Source of the DNA: Bacteroidaceae bacterium
Lineage (GTDB): Bacteria; Bacteroidota; Bacteroidia; Bacteroidales; Bacteroidaceae
Direction of reading: 5' to 3'
DNA length: 41,822 bases
Assembly (NCBI GenBank): GCA_017547585.1
Contig: JAFYPH010000008.1
Coordinates: 1-41,822, forward strand
Position 1 is the stretch's first letter. Every line of letters begins with the position of its first letter. The notes beneath the pieces are model-generated. The model was not told the origin of the DNA and ran no database searches. It saw nothing but the letters and a program-made list of their open reading frames with translations. Made by a program: the position numbers and the translations under genes. Positions 4,742-10,612 of the stretch are shown piece by piece.

Positions 4742-6088
4742 ATGCGAACAGAAATTGCAAACGTAACAATCGTAAACGAAGGCAGAAAAGCCATTGGCTC
4801 GGTAGTTATCAACGGAACAAAAATCGTGGAGATATGCACCGACGGCAAAGAGCCTTGTCGCAAGAGTGACAAGATAATAGATGGTAGCGGAATGTACCTG
4901 ATACCCGGAGTGATTGACGACCACGTGCACTTTCGCGAGCCGGGACTGACCCACAAGGCAAGCATCCTCTCCGAGACACGCGCCGCCGCAGCCGGCGGAG
5001 TGACATCTTTCATGGAGATGCCCAACACCCGTCCCGCAACAACCACCATCGCTGCGTTGCGCGACAAATTCCATCGTGCAGCAAAGGAGAGCCGCATAAA
5101 CTACTCATTCTACTTCGGCGCCACAAACGACAACAGCCATCTGTTCAACAAGCTGAACCCACACAGAGTGTGCGGAATAAAATTGTTCATGGGCTCGAGC
5201 ACCGGCAATATGCTCGTCGATGACAGCAACGGACTGGACGCAGTATTCTCAAAAGCCAATCTGCCCATCGCCGTACACTGCGAAGATACAGACATCATAA
5301 ACGCCAACGCCGAGAAGTACAGAAAGAGACACGGCGAGGATGTTGACGTAAAATTCCACCCGCTCATACGCAGCGAGAAGGCCTGCTACAAGTCTCTGAA
5401 GAAGGCAGTTGCTCTTGCCAGGAAGCACGGAAAGAAGCTGCACATTCTGCACATAAGCACCGAGCGCGAGCTTGCACTGCTCTCGGGCAAGCCCATGGCC
5501 AAGAAGAAGATTACTGCCGAGGTTACCCCCGCGCATCTTATCTTCTGCGACAAGGACTACGAGACAAAGGGTGCAATGATTAAATGCAACCCCGCCATAA
5601 AGACACAGAGCGACAGAGACGCACTGCGCGAGGCTCTGCGCAACGGCAAGATAGACATGATAGGCACCGACCACGCGCCGCATCTGCCCGAGGAGAAGAT
5701 GGGCGGAGCACTGAAGGCAACCTCGGGAATGCCCTCGATGCAGTTCACCCTGCCCGCAATGTTGCGCATGGTAGACGAAGGCATCTTCACCATCGAACAG
5801 ATTGTTACGAAGATGTGCCACGCACCGGCCGATTACTTCAAGATAGACAAGCGCGGATACATTAAGAAAGGATTCTACGCCGACCTTGTACTCATCGCGC
5901 CCGACAAACAGTGGACAGTCGAGAAGGGCGACATTCTCAGCACATGCGGCTGGAGCCCCTTCGAGGGAGAGACATTCAACTGGAAAGTGTGCGCCACATG
6001 GGTGAACGGAGAGTGCATCTACGACAATGGCAAGATAAACGACAACGTACGCGGAAGAGCCTTGAGATTCCTGCGCCATGGTCAATAA
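4742..6088 (+). CDS. pyrC: Dihydroorotase (class I type)
   Basis: Third step of pyrimidine biosynthesis: reversible cyclisation of N-carbamoyl-aspartate to dihydroorotate. The 448-residue protein is an amidohydrolase TIM barrel. Visible metal-site residues are His61 and His63 in DDHVHFREPG, Lys147 in GIKLFMGSSTGNML (position of the carbamylated lysine), His179 in AVHCED, His237 in HILHIST, and the catalytic Asp310 in GTDHAPH. The C-terminal part carries the barrel-return strand GYIKKGFYADLVLI. The length and the RxPG motif place it with Bacteroidetes dihydroorotases rather than allantoinase or hydantoinase. It is followed directly by the MetH-activation gene. No clear TAnnTTTG box is seen in the 95 bases upstream. 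Confidence 0.95.
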   Translation: MRTEIANVTIVNEGRKAIGSVVINGTKIVEICTDGKEPCRKSDKIIDGSGMYLIPGVIDDHVHFREPGLTHKASILSETRAAAAGGVTSFMEMPNTRPATTTIAALRDKFHRAAKESRINYSFYFGATNDNSHLFNKLNPHRVCGIKLFMGSSTGNMLVDDSNGLDAVFSKANLPIAVHCEDTDIINANAEKYRKRHGEDVDVKFHPLIRSEKACYKSLKKAVALARKHGKKLHILHISTERELALLSGKPMAKKKITAEVTPAHLIFCDKDYETKGAMIKCNPAIKTQSDRDALREALRNGKIDMIGTDHAPHLPEEKMGGALKATSGMPSMQFTLPAMLRMVDEGIFTIEQIVTKMCHAPADYFKIDKRGYIKKGFYADLVLIAPDKQWTVEKGDILSTCGWSPFEGETFNWKVCATWVNGECIYDNGKINDNVRGRALRFLRHGQ

Positions 6089-6089
6089 A

Positions 6090-6896
6090 ATGACAGCTAT
6101 AAACTTTTGTTACGAGGCGGCGCAACTGCTGCCCTACATCGACTGGAGCTACTTTTTCCACGCATGGGGGATAAAGGCCAGCGACTGCGGCACGAAAGAG
6201 GCGCAGCAGCTGAAAAGCGACGCCATCGCCCTACTCAACGAGAGGAGCACAGAAAAGGTGCAGGCACTTTTCCGTCTGTGCGACGCACGCAGCGAGGGTG
6301 ACAATCTGTTGCTCGACGGCGAGAGGCTGCCCCTTTTGCGCCAACAGCATACACGCCCCGACGAGCCCTGCCTGTGCCTGAGCGACTTTGTGTCGCCCGC
6401 GAAAGACCACGTGGGAATATTCGCAACGAGCATGGCCGACACATTCGAGGCCGCAGACAGCAACGACCCCTACCGCCACACACTCACACAGACACTCGCC
6501 GACCGCCTGACCGAGGCTGCCGCGTCGCTGCTGCACAGCAATGTGCGCACCCGCAAAGAGCTATGGGGCTACTCACCCGACGAGTATTTCACCCCGCAGG
6601 AGCTCAACAGTGAGCCATTCATGGGAATACGCCCCGCCGTCGGCTACCCCTCACTCCCCGACCAAACAATAATCTTTATAATAGACAAGCTGCTCGACCT
6701 TTCGCAGATAGGAATCACACTCACCGCCAACGGAGCGATGCACCCCCACTCGTCCGTCTGCGGACTGATGTTCGCCCACCCCGCGGCAAGATACTTCGCC
6801 GTTGGAAAAATAAGCGACGAACAGCTTCGCGACTACGCCCGCCGACGCGGCGTCGCACCCGAGGAGATTAAAAAGTTTCTGAGCAAAAATATCTGA
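6090..6896 (+). CDS. Stand-alone MetH reactivation domain protein
   Basis: Resembles the C-terminal AdoMet-binding activation domain of cobalamin-dependent methionine synthase, which remethylates cob(II)alamin using AdoMet and flavodoxin electrons. Key matches are the early FHAWGIKA-like helix, DFVSPAKDHVGIFATS, RPAVGYPSLPDQT (family RPAPGYPACPDHT), LTANGAMHPHSSVCGLMFAHPAARYFAVGKI (family AMxPxxSVSGLYFxHPxxxYFxVGKI; quoted in parts) and the final LRDYARRRG. At about 269 residues it contains only this domain: no folate, homocysteine or B12 domain. I take the ATG at 6090, two bases after the pyrC stop; an ATG at 6078 would overlap pyrC. It probably partners with a MetH encoded elsewhere that lacks this domain. 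Confidence 0.85.
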   Translation: MTAINFCYEAAQLLPYIDWSYFFHAWGIKASDCGTKEAQQLKSDAIALLNERSTEKVQALFRLCDARSEGDNLLLDGERLPLLRQQHTRPDEPCLCLSDFVSPAKDHVGIFATSMADTFEAADSNDPYRHTLTQTLADRLTEAAASLLHSNVRTRKELWGYSPDEYFTPQELNSEPFMGIRPAVGYPSLPDQTIIFIIDKLLDLSQIGITLTANGAMHPHSSVCGLMFAHPAARYFAVGKISDEQLRDYARRRGVAPEEIKKFLSKNI

Positions 6897-7028
6897 AAAG
6901 AGCGGCGCGAACATCTGCAAAAGCACTCTTTTGACTGCCAAAAGAGAAAAGTCACCCAAAAAGAAAGAGTTTTTAAAATAAAAAAAGATATATTTGCAAC
7001 ATAAATGTTGCGAATATAGGCTGCACTC
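6897..7028. other. Non-coding stretch with hairpin and isolated -7 box
   Basis: This stretch lies between the MetH-activation gene and the repeat array. CTCTTTT and AAAAGAG pair around a 7-base loop at 6926-6946, possibly a weak terminator. A TATATTTG box sits at 6989-6996, followed at once by the perfect inverted repeat GCAACAT-AA-ATGTTGC (6996-7011). No credible gene is present. Confidence 0.5.
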
Positions 7029-7503
7029 GTTGAATTTGAAAATAAATTTTCAATCACTCGTTGGCACTATATTTGCAAACTGAAGATTGCAAGCGCAAGC
7101 GGCAAACGTTGAAAAAGAAAATAATTTCCAATCACTCGTTGGCACTATATTTGCACAAAAAAATTTGCAAGCGCAAGCGGCAAACGTTGAAAAAGAAATA
7201 AATTTTCAATCACTCGCTGGCACTATATTTGCACAAAAAATTTGCAAGCGCAAGCGGCGAACATTGAAAAAGAAAATAATTTCCAATCACTCGTTGGCAC
7301 TATATTTGCAAACTGAAGATTGCAAGCGCAAGCGGCAAACGTTGAAAAAGAAAAGAATTTTCAATCACTAGCTGGCACTATATTTGCATATAAAAATTGC
7401 AAGCGCAAGCGGCGAACATTGAAAAAGAAAATAATTTCCAATCACCCGTTGGCACTATATTTGCAAACTGAAGATTGCAAGCGCAAGCGGCAAACATAAA
7501 TAG
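7029..7503 (+). repeat. 77-78 bp tandem repeat array, each unit with a promoter-like box
   Basis: Five full units start at 7087, 7165, 7242, 7320 and 7397 (lengths 78, 77, 78, 77, 78), with a partial unit on each side (from about 7029 and from 7475). Each begins TTGCAAGCGCAAGCGGC, continues AACRTTGAAAAAGAAA and ends near CACTATATTTGC. The variable part is the last few bases, either CAAAAAAA or AAACTGAAGA. TATATTTG boxes lie at 7068, 7146, 7224, 7301, 7379 and 7456 and match TAnnTTTG. TTTC or TTTT lies 17-18 bases before most of them. Copies are nearly identical, implying recent expansion or homogenisation. The array ends 26 bases before plsC. The alternating 77/78 lengths break any long reading frame. 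Confidence 0.93.
7456..7463 (+). promoter_or_regulatory. Array-terminal -7 box, likely plsC promoter
   Basis: The last TATATTTG of the array, followed by C, predicts a start near 7470 and a leader of about 60 bases before the ATG at 7530. It is the box nearest to plsC. The upstream copies could add transcription or interfere by occlusion. Confidence 0.6.
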
Positions 7504-7529
7504 AAAATACATATAAAAAAGCATAAGAC

Positions 7530-8255
7530 ATGAAAAAAATCTTACGTCCCTTCTACCTGCTGTATCAACTTATCGCATACCCCCTGGCAGGCATCGCATC
7601 GGCACTAACAGGCATCAGCATCAGCCTTTTCGGTAAATACATTCCCATAAAAGGCGGTGACTATTGGCCCGCAGTAATTTGGTCGAAGTTCATGATACGC
7701 ATATTCCTGCTGCCGATGACGGTTGTAGGCCGCGAGAAGCTCGACCCCAACAAAAACTACATCTTCATCGCCAACCATCAGGGCTCGTGGGACATCTTCA
7801 TGATGTTCGGATACATTGGCCGCAACTTTAAATGGATGATGAAAGACTCACTGCGCAAGATGCCCTTCATCGGACAAGCATGCTACGACACGGGCCACAT
7901 ATTTGTGAATCGCGACGCTCCGCAGAAGGAGATTTTCGTGAAGGCTGTAAAGACCATCAAGAAAGGCACGGCGATGGGTATATTTGCCGAAGGCACACGC
8001 ACACGCAACGGCCGTCTGGGAGAGTTCAAGAAAGGCGCATTTGTTATTGCGGACATGACACAGGTGGAGGTTGTTCCCATTGCCATCCAGGGCTCGTACG
8101 ACCTTTTGCCCAAGAAAGGAATCTTCATGAATTGGGCACCGCTGAAGCTCACAATTCTCGACCCCATAAAGCCCATAGGCAAAGGAAAAGAGAATGTCGA
8201 GTATCTGATGAACGAGTCGCGCGCGGCTATCGCAAAGGCTCTCGGCGAGGAGTAG
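7530..8255 (+). CDS. plsC: 1-acyl-sn-glycerol-3-phosphate acyltransferase
   Basis: Membrane-associated enzyme that adds the second acyl chain to lysophosphatidic acid to form phosphatidic acid. The 241-residue length is normal for PlsC. A hydrophobic N-terminal segment (about residues 5-35) is followed by the catalytic NHQGSWD motif (HX4D, about residue 83-89), a PFIGQACY-type acceptor segment, the FAEGTRTRNGR block (about 152-162, equivalent to FPEGTRS) and VVPIAIQGS. It stands alone, preceded by the promoter-repeat array and followed by a bidirectional terminator. An unrelated second acyltransferase faces it on the other strand, so phospholipid genes cluster here. Confidence 0.95.
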   Translation: MKKILRPFYLLYQLIAYPLAGIASALTGISISLFGKYIPIKGGDYWPAVIWSKFMIRIFLLPMTVVGREKLDPNKNYIFIANHQGSWDIFMMFGYIGRNFKWMMKDSLRKMPFIGQACYDTGHIFVNRDAPQKEIFVKAVKTIKKGTAMGIFAEGTRTRNGRLGEFKKGAFVIADMTQVEVVPIAIQGSYDLLPKKGIFMNWAPLKLTILDPIKPIGKGKENVEYLMNESRAAIAKALGEE

Positions 8256-8336: not shown

Positions 8337-9668
8337 CTATTTTAAAATCTCTCTTATCTGTGAATATATTTTCATCAATCTCTTATCGCCCACAAGCTTT
8401 GCGTCCGACACAAGAAGTCTCGCTGTCTTCCACACTTCGTGTGCCACAAAGGGCGCGGGCATTATGAACAGTGCAGTCAGTAGCGCACACTGCCACGGGA
8501 GTACAGAGAATGCAATAATCGCATATATGAGCATCAGCAGAGGCCACACAAAAAGAGTCACCAGAAATCTTAAAGAGTTTCTGAAGGCGCGGTCGCGCAA
8601 CTTGGTGAACAGGAATTCGCACAAGAGGAATATAGGGCTTGCGAGCAGCGACACGGGGAGCGTGTAAGGCAGAGTGACAAGCGTGAGGATTGTTCGTGCC
8701 ACACGCGAGAGCAACGGCTTTTTCACGGCGGCCGACTCTACGTCGATGCCCTTTGCTGCGCGCAATCTGCTGGCCTCCTTTCCAAGCTCGAGCAACTTTT
8801 TCGCCTTCTCGGGCGCACTCTCTTTCAAAGCCTCTATGCGCTTCAAAGTGCTGTTGTTTGCCATAAACTGCAATTCGGGAGCAGACTTTTTCGCGTTTGC
8901 CTTGTCGCGCTTCAGTTCCTCAATCTCCATGCATTCGGCAGCGTTGCACACTTCGTATGTAGCGCTGTAATTCTCGTCGTTGGGAATGTAGTAAATTGTG
9001 GACGTGAGGCGCTCGGTGAGCAGGTCTCTCATGCTGTTAATCTGCTCTTGCTGAGAGAGATGAGCATTCTCGGCAAGAAATTCGCCGATGTTTATGGGCT
9101 TTCCTATCTGCAGATGCACGGTAGAGCGGAAACGGAAGAGGTCGCCGTATCTCAGTCCCATGGGCACAATGTACAGCGGCATCTGAGGCATCTGCTCGTG
9201 GGCCTGCAGAGCAATTCTGAAGATTCCTTTCGAGAGGGGCAGCAACGAATATTTTGCCTGATGCGTACCCTCGGGGAATATGCAGAAGGGCATCTTGTCC
9301 TTGAGGACATCGACAGCCTTGTCTATAATCTCTTGATTCTTCTTTACAGCGTTGAAGCCGTCACGCTGACGCATGATGGGCATCATTTTAAGGAAAGTGA
9401 GAATCTTTGCCAGCTTGCGATTCCTGAAAATATCGGCGCGTGCAACAAACACCTTGGGCTTGAGGTCGATGTTCAACGCCACCAATGCATCCATCAGCGT
9501 ATTTGTGTGGTTGGGGGCGAAGATTATTGCTCCGTCGGTGGGGATATTCTCTTTTCCCACGTGGGCAATCTTTCTATACGACAATTTCATGACAAAAGCC
9601 ACGTAACGATGAAAGAAGCAATAGGCTCTGTCAAAATCCTGTATTTTCTTTATTTTTCTTTTTCCCAT
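8337..9668 (-). CDS. PlsC-like glycerolipid acyltransferase with C-terminal membrane segments
   Basis: 443 residues from the ATG at 9668; a longer frame from 9773 would run 103 bases into the transporter gene. The N-terminal half is a PlsC-type acyltransferase: NHTNTLMD near residue 55 (an HX5D form also common in glycerol-acyltransferase relatives), then IFPEGTH and KGIFRIAL near 130-155, and VPMGLRYG. A polar helical stretch follows, then two or three hydrophobic segments near residues 325-400 (TLPVSLLASPIFLLCEF, FLVTLFVWPLLMLIYAII, CALLTALFIMPAPFV). The architecture suggests a membrane glycerophosphate or lysolipid acyltransferase; the acceptor is not readable. It starts two bases after the transporter stop, so the two form an operon. 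Confidence 0.85.
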   Translation of the reverse strand: MGKRKIKKIQDFDRAYCFFHRYVAFVMKLSYRKIAHVGKENIPTDGAIIFAPNHTNTLMDALVALNIDLKPKVFVARADIFRNRKLAKILTFLKMMPIMRQRDGFNAVKKNQEIIDKAVDVLKDKMPFCIFPEGTHQAKYSLLPLSKGIFRIALQAHEQMPQMPLYIVPMGLRYGDLFRFRSTVHLQIGKPINIGEFLAENAHLSQQEQINSMRDLLTERLTSTIYYIPNDENYSATYEVCNAAECMEIEELKRDKANAKKSAPELQFMANNSTLKRIEALKESAPEKAKKLLELGKEASRLRAAKGIDVESAAVKKPLLSRVARTILTLVTLPYTLPVSLLASPIFLLCEFLFTKLRDRAFRNSLRFLVTLFVWPLLMLIYAIIAFSVLPWQCALLTALFIMPAPFVAHEVWKTARLLVSDAKLVGDKRLMKIYSQIREILK

Positions 9669-9670
9669 AA

Positions 9671-10612
9671 TCAATGTCTGCGGAAATAGTACGAAACACA
9701 AAGTCCCGAAATTATGTGCCATATTCCCCACCACGCTGTGATAAAGAGCATTCCTCCATAGTGGCCGTGCCAAATTTCGGGCGGGAAGATTGCACGGTTG
9801 AACAGCAGGATAAGGCCCAGGCCGGAGTTCTGAATACCAGTCTCTATGGTAAGGGCTTTTGTATCACTATGAGGCAGTTTCGCCAGCTTGCCGCCGAAAT
9901 ATCCTGTTGACAATGCCACTGCATTGTGGAGCATCACAATAAAGAACACATAGAAGATATTATCGATGAATATCTGGAAATTCTGGGCAAAAGAGACCAC
10001 TACCATTCCCACAAAGAGCAGCACAGAAATCACCTGCGAAGGCTTGGTTATCTTCTTTGTTGCCGCAGGGAAATAGTGCGCGAAAAGAAGACCCAGCACT
10101 ATCGGGAGTCCCAGCAACAGCAGTATCTGCTCGAGCATCGGGAAGAAGGGAATCACCAGCATGGGAATATCGCTCTTGATGCTGATAAAGTGGCTGTAGA
10201 GCGAGCCCCACACGAAGAAATTTATAGGGGTGATAATGGGTGCCATTGAGGTTGTAATCGCCGTCAGCGACACAGATAGCACAATGTTGCCTTTAGATAG
10301 TGACGAGAGGAAATTGGAAATGTTGCCTCCGGGGCACGATGCCACCAATATCATTCCGAGCGCAATCATCGGAGTGATGAAGGGGTTCAACGCAAACACG
10401 ACTGCAAATGTTATCGCCGGAAGCGCAAACCACTGCAGCAATGCTCCGACAATAATAGACTTGGGTTTCTTGAAAACATCCTTTACTGTTCGCGGCTTGA
10501 TGTTGAGAGCCACTCCGAACATCACAAAGGCGAGGATGATGTTGACAATCGCCATTCCTCCTTCGCCAAAATTAATAGTTACGGAATTCAAGGATTCCAA
10601 TTGTTCTTTCAT
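9671..10612 (-). CDS. Bile acid:sodium symporter (BASS) family transporter
   Basis: Inner-membrane transporter with about nine to ten hydrophobic helices over 313 residues. BASS signatures are VASCPGGNISNFLSSLSKG, with the first discontinuous-helix glycines, and TIETGIQNSGLGLIL, with the second crossover and sodium-site residues. Bacterial members carry bile acids, pantoate and other organic anions with Na+; the substrate here is unknown. The upstream frame allows an ATG at 10648, but the promoter box at 10636-10643 would then lie inside the coding region, so I prefer the ATG at 10612. It is co-transcribed with the downstream acyltransferase, a link that hints at lipid-related cargo but proves nothing. 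Confidence 0.9.
   Translation of the reverse strand: MKEQLESLNSVTINFGEGGMAIVNIILAFVMFGVALNIKPRTVKDVFKKPKSIIVGALLQWFALPAITFAVVFALNPFITPMIALGMILVASCPGGNISNFLSSLSKGNIVLSVSLTAITTSMAPIITPINFFVWGSLYSHFISIKSDIPMLVIPFFPMLEQILLLLGLPIVLGLLFAHYFPAATKKITKPSQVISVLLFVGMVVVSFAQNFQIFIDNIFYVFFIVMLHNAVALSTGYFGGKLAKLPHSDTKALTIETGIQNSGLGLILLFNRAIFPPEIWHGHYGGMLFITAWWGIWHIISGLCVSYYFRRH

Follow-up and report, generated by a model that had tools for sequence, protein, structure and literature searches.

A tandem array located 5′ of an acyltransferase gene in a Bacteroidaceae genome probably represents the local expansion of a small mobile promoter-seated repeat, which would insert at the −7 boxes of existing promoters and restore the box in doing so. 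We assign this reading a probability of about 0.62. It draws on the anatomy of the repeated element, the pairing of its two hairpins, its sense position before genes, its turnover at orthologous promoters and the agreement between the boxes to its left and right. The repeat would be, or once have been, mobile, probably as a non-autonomous element, with the −7 box as its target. The array was identified in a stretch of 41,822 nucleotides (the window, which refers here to the entire length analysed). The gene at 7530–8255 is provisionally called plsC on the basis of its PF01553 Acyltransferase domain. A second PF01553 domain (1.5e-20) is found in a 478-aa ORF on the minus strand (window 8337–9773), convergent with plsC.

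The array includes seven identical copies of the box TATATTTGCA, which start at window positions 6989, 7068, 7146, 7224, 7301, 7379 and 7456 and succeed each other in steps of 79, 78, 78, 77, 78 and 77 bp. All are of the TAnnTTTG type, are in the sense orientation toward plsC and start 74–541 bp before its ATG at 7530. TAnnTTTG is the consensus −7 sequence of σABfr promoters given in PMC7366714. The tandem units of 77–78 bp before plsC proposed in the sequence-only reading are indeed present: TRF identifies a 78 bp period in 6.1 copies (7038–7509) and the steps are of 77–79 bp. The row of six boxes it had described is largely borne out, since −7-type boxes matching this consensus are repeated toward plsC, but there are seven of them, the additional box at 6989 falling outside the range it had considered. 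Likewise, a TTTC does precede each box of units 1–6, but it starts 20–21 nt ahead, somewhat nearer than the suggested position of about −33. Counting both strands of the window, TATATTTGC occurs nine times, compared to a mean of 0.3 in 50 first-order Markov sequences, which excludes chance as its source.

TRF gives higher scores to periods of 155 (770) and 233 (754) than to that of 78 (697), and units 1 and 4 are 95% identical, as are units 3 and 5, while the remaining internal pairs are 85–91% identical. The array therefore looks as if it had grown by block duplication. Since there are few differences among the units, the fact that all seven boxes are identical argues only weakly for selection or function (P 0.12 for ten columns). 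The genome is a draft MAG of 65 contigs, 85% complete, and the exact number of copies in the array is in doubt. The draft state of the assembly might also raise the question of whether the array as such is an artefact of metagenome assembly. This is extremely improbable: the units differ from each other and similar tandems are found at other loci and in other genomes, which leaves only the exact copy number doubtful.

Table 1. Features of the plsC array and of the flanking genes (window coordinates).
Feature	Position	Strand	Support
Unit 0, full canonical element (−7 box, hairpin A, L-motif, hairpin B, R-motif)	6989..7067	+	Fold; L-motif 0 mismatches
Hairpin A, 13 pairs including one T.G: arms TATATTTGCAACA (native −7 box) and TGTTGCGAATATA (its inverted copy) around a TAAA loop	6989..7018	+	
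L-motif GCGAATATAGGCTGCACTCG	7010..7029	+	0 mismatches
Hairpin B core TTGAAAATAAATTTTCAA	7036..7053	+	Fold; B stems covary at other loci
R-motif CACTCGTTGGCAC, ahead of next −7 box	7055..7067	+	R-motif family at other loci
Unit 1, degenerate copy, −7 box 7068–7077	7068..7145	+	Fold z −0.5
Unit 2, −7 box 7146–7155	7146..7223	+	Fold z −1.4
Unit 3, −7 box 7224–7233	7224..7300	+	Fold z 0.0
Unit 4, −7 box 7301–7310	7301..7378	+	Fold z −0.75
Unit 5, −7 box 7379–7388	7379..7455	+	Fold z −0.6
Last partial unit: −7 box 7456–7465, then plsC leader	7456..7495	+	
GC-rich block GCAAGCGCAAGCGGC, first copy; derived hairpin A arm	7089..7103	+	
Putative plsC-type acyltransferase gene, 3′ of array	7530..8255	+	PF01553, 1.1e-28
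B12-dependent methionine synthase activation domain gene, 5′ of array	6078..6896	+	PF02965

Unit 0 folds at −22.5 kcal/mol (z −4.9), a value equalled by none of 200 shuffled sequences, and its hairpin A pairs the −7 box TATATTTG with CGAATATA. Units 1–5, which share 72–76% identity with unit 0, fold far more weakly (z −1.4 to 0.0). A conserved GC-rich block had been noted in the sequence-only reading and this block, GCAAGCGCAAGCGGC, is invariant across the five internal units and also present in the last partial unit, but it is absent from unit 0, where GCGAATATAGGCTGC is found at the corresponding place, and it does not belong to the conserved part of the family. It is a degenerate, locus-specific form of the right arm of hairpin A, in whose place it stands in the decayed units 1–5.

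The element itself is about 75–85 bp long and runs from the downstream side of one TAnnTTTG to a second TAnnTTTG. Its left half includes, in order, the −7 box, a stem, a short loop, the box repeated in inverted orientation (CGAANATA), a two-base spacer and CTGC[A/G]CTCG. The right half is composed of hairpin B, whose sequence differs by type, a CTCG[T/C]T motif and, after a short spacer, the next −7 box. By eye, CTGC[A/G]CTCG and CTCG[T/C]T are the conserved flanks of the hairpins. The element ends CGAANATA and TATNTTTG are inverted copies.

A search of the genome for other copies, as the sequence-only reading had advised, proved productive: the plsC array used as query revealed 11 further places at E 0.001 or better, and the left motif is present at 55 places with up to 3 mismatches (control, 1). 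The family is found throughout the genus. With one mismatch allowed, CGAANATANNCTGCRCTCG occurs in all 44 genus genomes, at 1–67 places each, for a total of 935 (reversed control, 1), most of them counted as pattern matches without individual inspection; 17 of the 67 places in genome G029 read CGAAACTATGCTGCGCTCG and may be another repeat. An earlier survey using the left motif at 2 mismatches had detected it in 35/37 genus genomes and in 0/24 genomes from other families, and all comparisons include one genome per species. In an order-wide scan 18 of 198 genomes match. Beyond the genome of the array itself, these are G071 (47 places) and G185 (5), both from one other family, G178 (6) from another, and 14 genomes with 1–2 places each, which on inspection were without the remaining parts of the element. 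Two genomes of a sister genus gave no match. The distribution of the repeat is patchy. Two exact, and therefore narrow, element patterns gave no match in viral contigs. Rfam returned nothing at gathering across the window and nothing to E 1 in 6900–7560, and a search of the open-access literature, which covers only part of what is published, found no description of such a repeat.

Elements are present as single copies (47 clusters), in pairs (22) or in threes (7), with up to 4 copies when a looser pattern is used. The plsC array exceeds all of these clusters and is the longest examined, but its length is not unique since a related form gives seven matches, mostly in 80-bp steps, at G025:C20:97100-97656. 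This form, GCGAACTTCGGCTGCGCTCG or GCGAAGCTCGGCTGCGCTCG, is of high copy number there and at many places in G029, and is without the ATA of the box partner. By eye, one type of hairpin B is common to several promoters within a species. Several loci show additional sequences. Downstream of their last hairpin A, loci from different species (L082, L277, L283 and L301) have GGATGCGGCTCGG in common, which may be an additional module or a separate repeat. A repeat with flank motifs similar to those of the element, GGCTGCGCTCGTT ... ACTCGCTGGCACTACTTTTGC, occurs in another context at L011, L014 and L015 (contigs C8, C19 and C27), followed at L011 and L015 by the hairpin-like CCCTTTTGGGCGCCAAAAGGG; L014 and L015 are near contig starts.

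The arms of both hairpins are matched to each other within loci. When arms were exchanged between loci, using one unit per locus (63 for A, 42 for B and 60 for a box-N test), the mean duplex energy of hairpin A was −1.78 kcal/mol for own arms compared to 0.61 for permuted arms (63 loci; the permuted means had an sd of 0.18 and, over 5000 permutations, a minimum of −0.11) and that of hairpin B was −6.54 compared to −3.84 kcal/mol (42 loci; sd 0.27, minimum −4.82). The genome of the array alone, again with one unit per locus (25 loci from 35 units), agrees with the wider set. Among 56 distinct hairpin A sequences (of 68, restricted to units with an 18-nt arm) 0.91 of cells are paired, against 0.79 when shuffled (maximum 82%), and among 41 distinct hairpin B sequences (restricted to units of 36 nt) 0.93 are paired, against 0.84 (maximum 87%). 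Changes on both sides of a pair are found in 68 cells in 4 pairs of A and in 49 cells in 7 pairs of B, and the paired fraction of A and B falls to 32–60% when the partner is slid along. The patterns used to collect the sequences fix the left motif, so that these tests rest on the free positions, and both swaps and shuffles ignore the relatedness of sequences.

Hairpin A includes an invariant T.G pair (56/56) and its loop is TAAA in 41/56 cases. On one reading, a T-A pair at this position would make a TTTG box on the opposite strand. The variable base of the box is unpaired in 24 of the 56 sequences and this position is therefore only partly matched. In G071, from another family, the same flanks surround an unrelated B stem. 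Boxes free of an element carry a GCRAA arm in 10 of 75 cases, compared to 2.8 when shuffled (maximum 9 in 200 shuffles), and these are partly the last copies of arrays. The idea that hairpin A is a general trait of native promoters was put aside because the test is poor: only 3 of 8 boxes with the element motif pass it at the same strictness.

Elements are largely found in the sense orientation before genes. A same-strand ORF start lies within 250 nt downstream in 68 of 76 clusters, at a median of 45.5 nt from the right motif, compared to 1005 of 2000 random places and strands of these loci; although the test is lax, the sense excess is clear. The mirror test, for a divergent ORF start upstream, is positive in 35/76, about the random rate. 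The ORF-start test left out loci that were short, as well as those of plsC, thyA and the synthetase gene, and skipped 11 clusters with short flanks; the plsC locus itself is one of the 8 misses. In the genome of the array, the downstream genes include thyA and genes for a class I aminoacyl-tRNA synthetase (W/Y type), SecA, a UvrD-like helicase, a malate/lactate dehydrogenase, a ParA-like ATPase, Ssb, a DbpA-type helicase, a sigma factor, MTHFR, glycosidases and others. A regulon was considered and dropped after 30 downstream proteins had been scanned, their functions being unrelated.

Covarying hairpins, an invariant T.G pair and a frequent TAAA loop, located mostly in sense before genes, are features that might be expected of a structured 5′ leader RNA acting in cis on the downstream genes and kept by selection rather than by movement. 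We consider this rather unlikely. The downstream genes have no evident common function, hairpin A contains the −7 box, which would be missing from a transcript starting there, and the Rfam search to E 1 was without a match. The thyA forms, moreover, differ among close species and most of the distant plsC and thyA orthologues examined are without the element.

These orthologous promoters were compared at 30 loci each for plsC and thyA, taken from 44 and 42 genomes with a match. The array is present at only one of the 30 plsC loci. The other 29 have neither a second box nor the left motif within 500 nt, four of them (L132, L133, L040 and L044) being weak comparisons with other upstream neighbours. 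By eye, two species (L149 and L154) have one diverged element each. At L131, where the protein is 85% identical and the upstream gene is the same, there is a single promoter, TTATATTTGCATATTGAACAGTGCAAATAATA, and the end of the plsC leader before the ATG, ATAAAAAAGCAT, is common to this relative and to the array. The upstream PF02965-type gene also ends before plsC in the array-free L041 and L131 and array-free plsC promoters keep the −7 box with no GG at −24 (both by eye).

The sequence-only reading had regarded the unit as a device dedicated to plsC, in which several promoters, varying in number by slippage, would tune expression of the gene. Seven identical sense −7 boxes and a history of block duplication are in keeping with it. 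Neither the confinement of the array to one plsC locus in 30 nor the presence of the same unit family before many unrelated genes across the genus fits such a device, and we regard it as unlikely.

At thyA, the six closest species differ: three copies of one type are found in G000, and three with another B stem in G002. G021 carries a single copy, whose B stem differs again, together with extra sequence. G029 has only hairpin B, in G012 there is a tandem repeat of a different kind that lacks the left motif, and G025 has no element. The G012 repeat (L213) lies in tandem between TATCTTT boxes 5′ of thyA and its last unit has a long hairpin, GGAGAA...TTCTCC. At the 24 more distant thyA loci there is no sense left motif within 700 nt, although L223 has a fragment. 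For the synthetase gene, 16 of 30 loci were examined, and one of the six closest species is represented by a gene fragment (L335). Two copies are found in G000, one in G025 and none in G012, G002 and G029. The G025 copy is flanked by a 29-bp direct repeat, TATCTTTGCAAAGRAATTTTGCGAAAATA, identical at 28/29 positions, and on both sides the promoter and leader can be recognised as the same in occupied and empty species. The same promoter thus gains, loses or swaps elements between sister species. Such turnover at orthologous promoters, together with a B type common within a species, is the behaviour of a moving or copied repeat. The occupied and empty sites compared are from different species, so that movement is inferred between species only.

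The boxes at the two ends of an element are related. In single copies with both boxes (n=45), the two variable bases of the left and right box agree in 34, compared to 17.4 when permuted (sd 2.8, maximum 29), and, when eight likely hidden tandems are removed, the fourth box base agrees in 31/37 compared to 16.7. This suggests that the box is duplicated or copied on arrival of the element, or that selection keeps the two boxes alike; part of the agreement could come from selection favouring a good −7 box. Outside the box, flank agreement is strong at −4 and +8 and scattered from +11 to +22 (z up to 4.3), a patchy distribution which argues against a clean target duplication. In 58 single copies, the sequence that follows the last box is more similar to that following the first than expected by chance (0.51 compared to 0.40, sd 0.016). 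By eye, the last box is not followed by a full hairpin A in most of the 97 clusters, and the ends of the element are therefore not sharp. In 23/45 single copies, the left box has a fourth base that can pair with the free N of CGAAN, compared to 12.0 when permuted (sd 2.6).

The steps envisaged for a mobile promoter-seated repeat are as follows. The element would insert at the TAnnTTTG box of an existing promoter, the lower stem of its hairpin A pairing this left −7 box with CGAANATA, and would bring its own second TAnnTTTG box. With a new box at its downstream end the gene would keep a promoter and the insertion would consequently be tolerated. The rebuilt box may then accept or seed further copies, giving rise to arrays, whether by further rounds of insertion or by unequal exchange. 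The plsC array would have begun with a canonical unit 0 and then grown by block duplications, the hairpins of units 1–5 decaying while the seven boxes stayed unchanged. RNA polymerase carrying σABfr probably starts from one or several of the boxes. Our guess is that the last one, which has the shortest leader (some 60–65 nt), is the likeliest to serve plsC and that the earlier ones add to it or idle. Leaders in B. thetaiotaomicron have a median of 32 nt (PMC7366714).

As to how insertion might occur, we tentatively entertain, while considering it rather unlikely, a minimal transposable repeat which targets active promoters at their melted −7 region. Its two single-strand recognition structures would be hairpins A and B, and the box the site of cleavage or crossover; insertion would rebuild the box and the left arm would adapt to the local one, in keeping with the pairing of the free N with the variable box base. 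The enzyme might be an unrecognised HUH-like protein or a tyrosine recombinase acting on single-stranded or hairpin DNA. A −7-like target has a counterpart in Bacteroides: the integration site of CTnDOT, GTANNTTTGC (TANNTTTGC-like), resembles a −7 box. Unlike the repeat, CTnDOT is large and conjugative, and encodes its own integrase.

With two small hairpins in each element, numerous copies and arrays, the family also recalls REP/BIME-type palindromes mobilised by a RAYT/Y1 transposase, and short palindromic units in many copies are features shared with the REPs described in PMC3733652. That the repeat belongs to this type is nevertheless very improbable. Y1_Tnp (PF01797) is found in only 5 of 44 genomes (9–24 places each) and in 0 of the ten with at least 39 places, including that of the array, although these are drafts in which a single gene may have been missed. 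No GTAG or CGTC tag is visible by eye at the foot of the hairpins, and the element lies upstream of genes in the sense orientation while REPs are mostly downstream (PMC3733652).

The unit ends, TTGGCAC-TATAT-TTGCA or CTGGCAC-TATAT-TTGCA, are close to the −24/−12 consensus of sigma-54 promoters. This consensus has GG at −24 and GC at −12. The pattern YTGGCAYN5TTGCW has 23 matches in the genome of the array and 0 when reversed, all six array positions fit, rpoN is present and there are three strong sigma-54 activator genes. However, 15 of the 23 matches are in copies of this repeat and 4 in a related repeat, and GG-N10-GC or TGGCAC-N4-TTTG is present at just 15 of the 150 distinct right ends of elements. 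As GG at −24 is not a feature of the family, sigma-54 promoters are an improbable explanation of the unit and this reading was dropped. Three other sites in G000 (C17:44079, C38:4679 and C38:19263), of the form TTGGCACGNTTTTTGC[A/T], resemble ordinary sigma-54 promoters.

The TAnnTTTG box at each end of the element is that of σABfr promoters (PMC7366714), while ordinary promoters of this type, such as those at most plsC loci here, have one box and neither hairpin A nor B. Among known repeats, this one would seem to work most like the Correia elements, and also like BOX, but with the −7 box as its seat and mostly in one orientation. Correia repeat enclosed elements (CREE) of Neisseria are present in >120 copies, have inverted repeats, are able to create promoter sequences at their ends, alter the control of neighbouring genes and show evidence of mobility (PMC2649163). 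Like these, the repeat described here is small, interspersed and promoter-bearing, with occupied and empty orthologous sites, here between species. In contrast to CREE as described in that source, and comparing descriptions rather than sequences, it has the −7 box as its apparent seat, is mostly in sense, carries two covarying hairpins with variable stems and forms tandem arrays. BOX elements are modular, with tandem boxB. The BOX, RUP and SPRITE repeats of pneumococcus are small, have extensive secondary structure, are thought to be parasitic and likely affect co-transcribed genes (PMC3049150). The likeness to BOX lies in a small structured repeat whose tandem copies vary in number (here 1–3, up to 4, with 7 boxes at plsC); a restored promoter box does not form part of the BOX description in that source (PMC3049150), the comparison again being one of descriptions and not of sequences.

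If the preferred reading of a mobile promoter-seated repeat is right, a repeat can make itself tolerable by settling at a promoter box that it then restores, and has done so at housekeeping promoters throughout a whole gut genus. It would show how the promoters driving essential genes come to be rewired from one sister species to another. It would also provide natural tandem promoters for the Bacteroidales and would make the choice of target by open promoter complexes testable.
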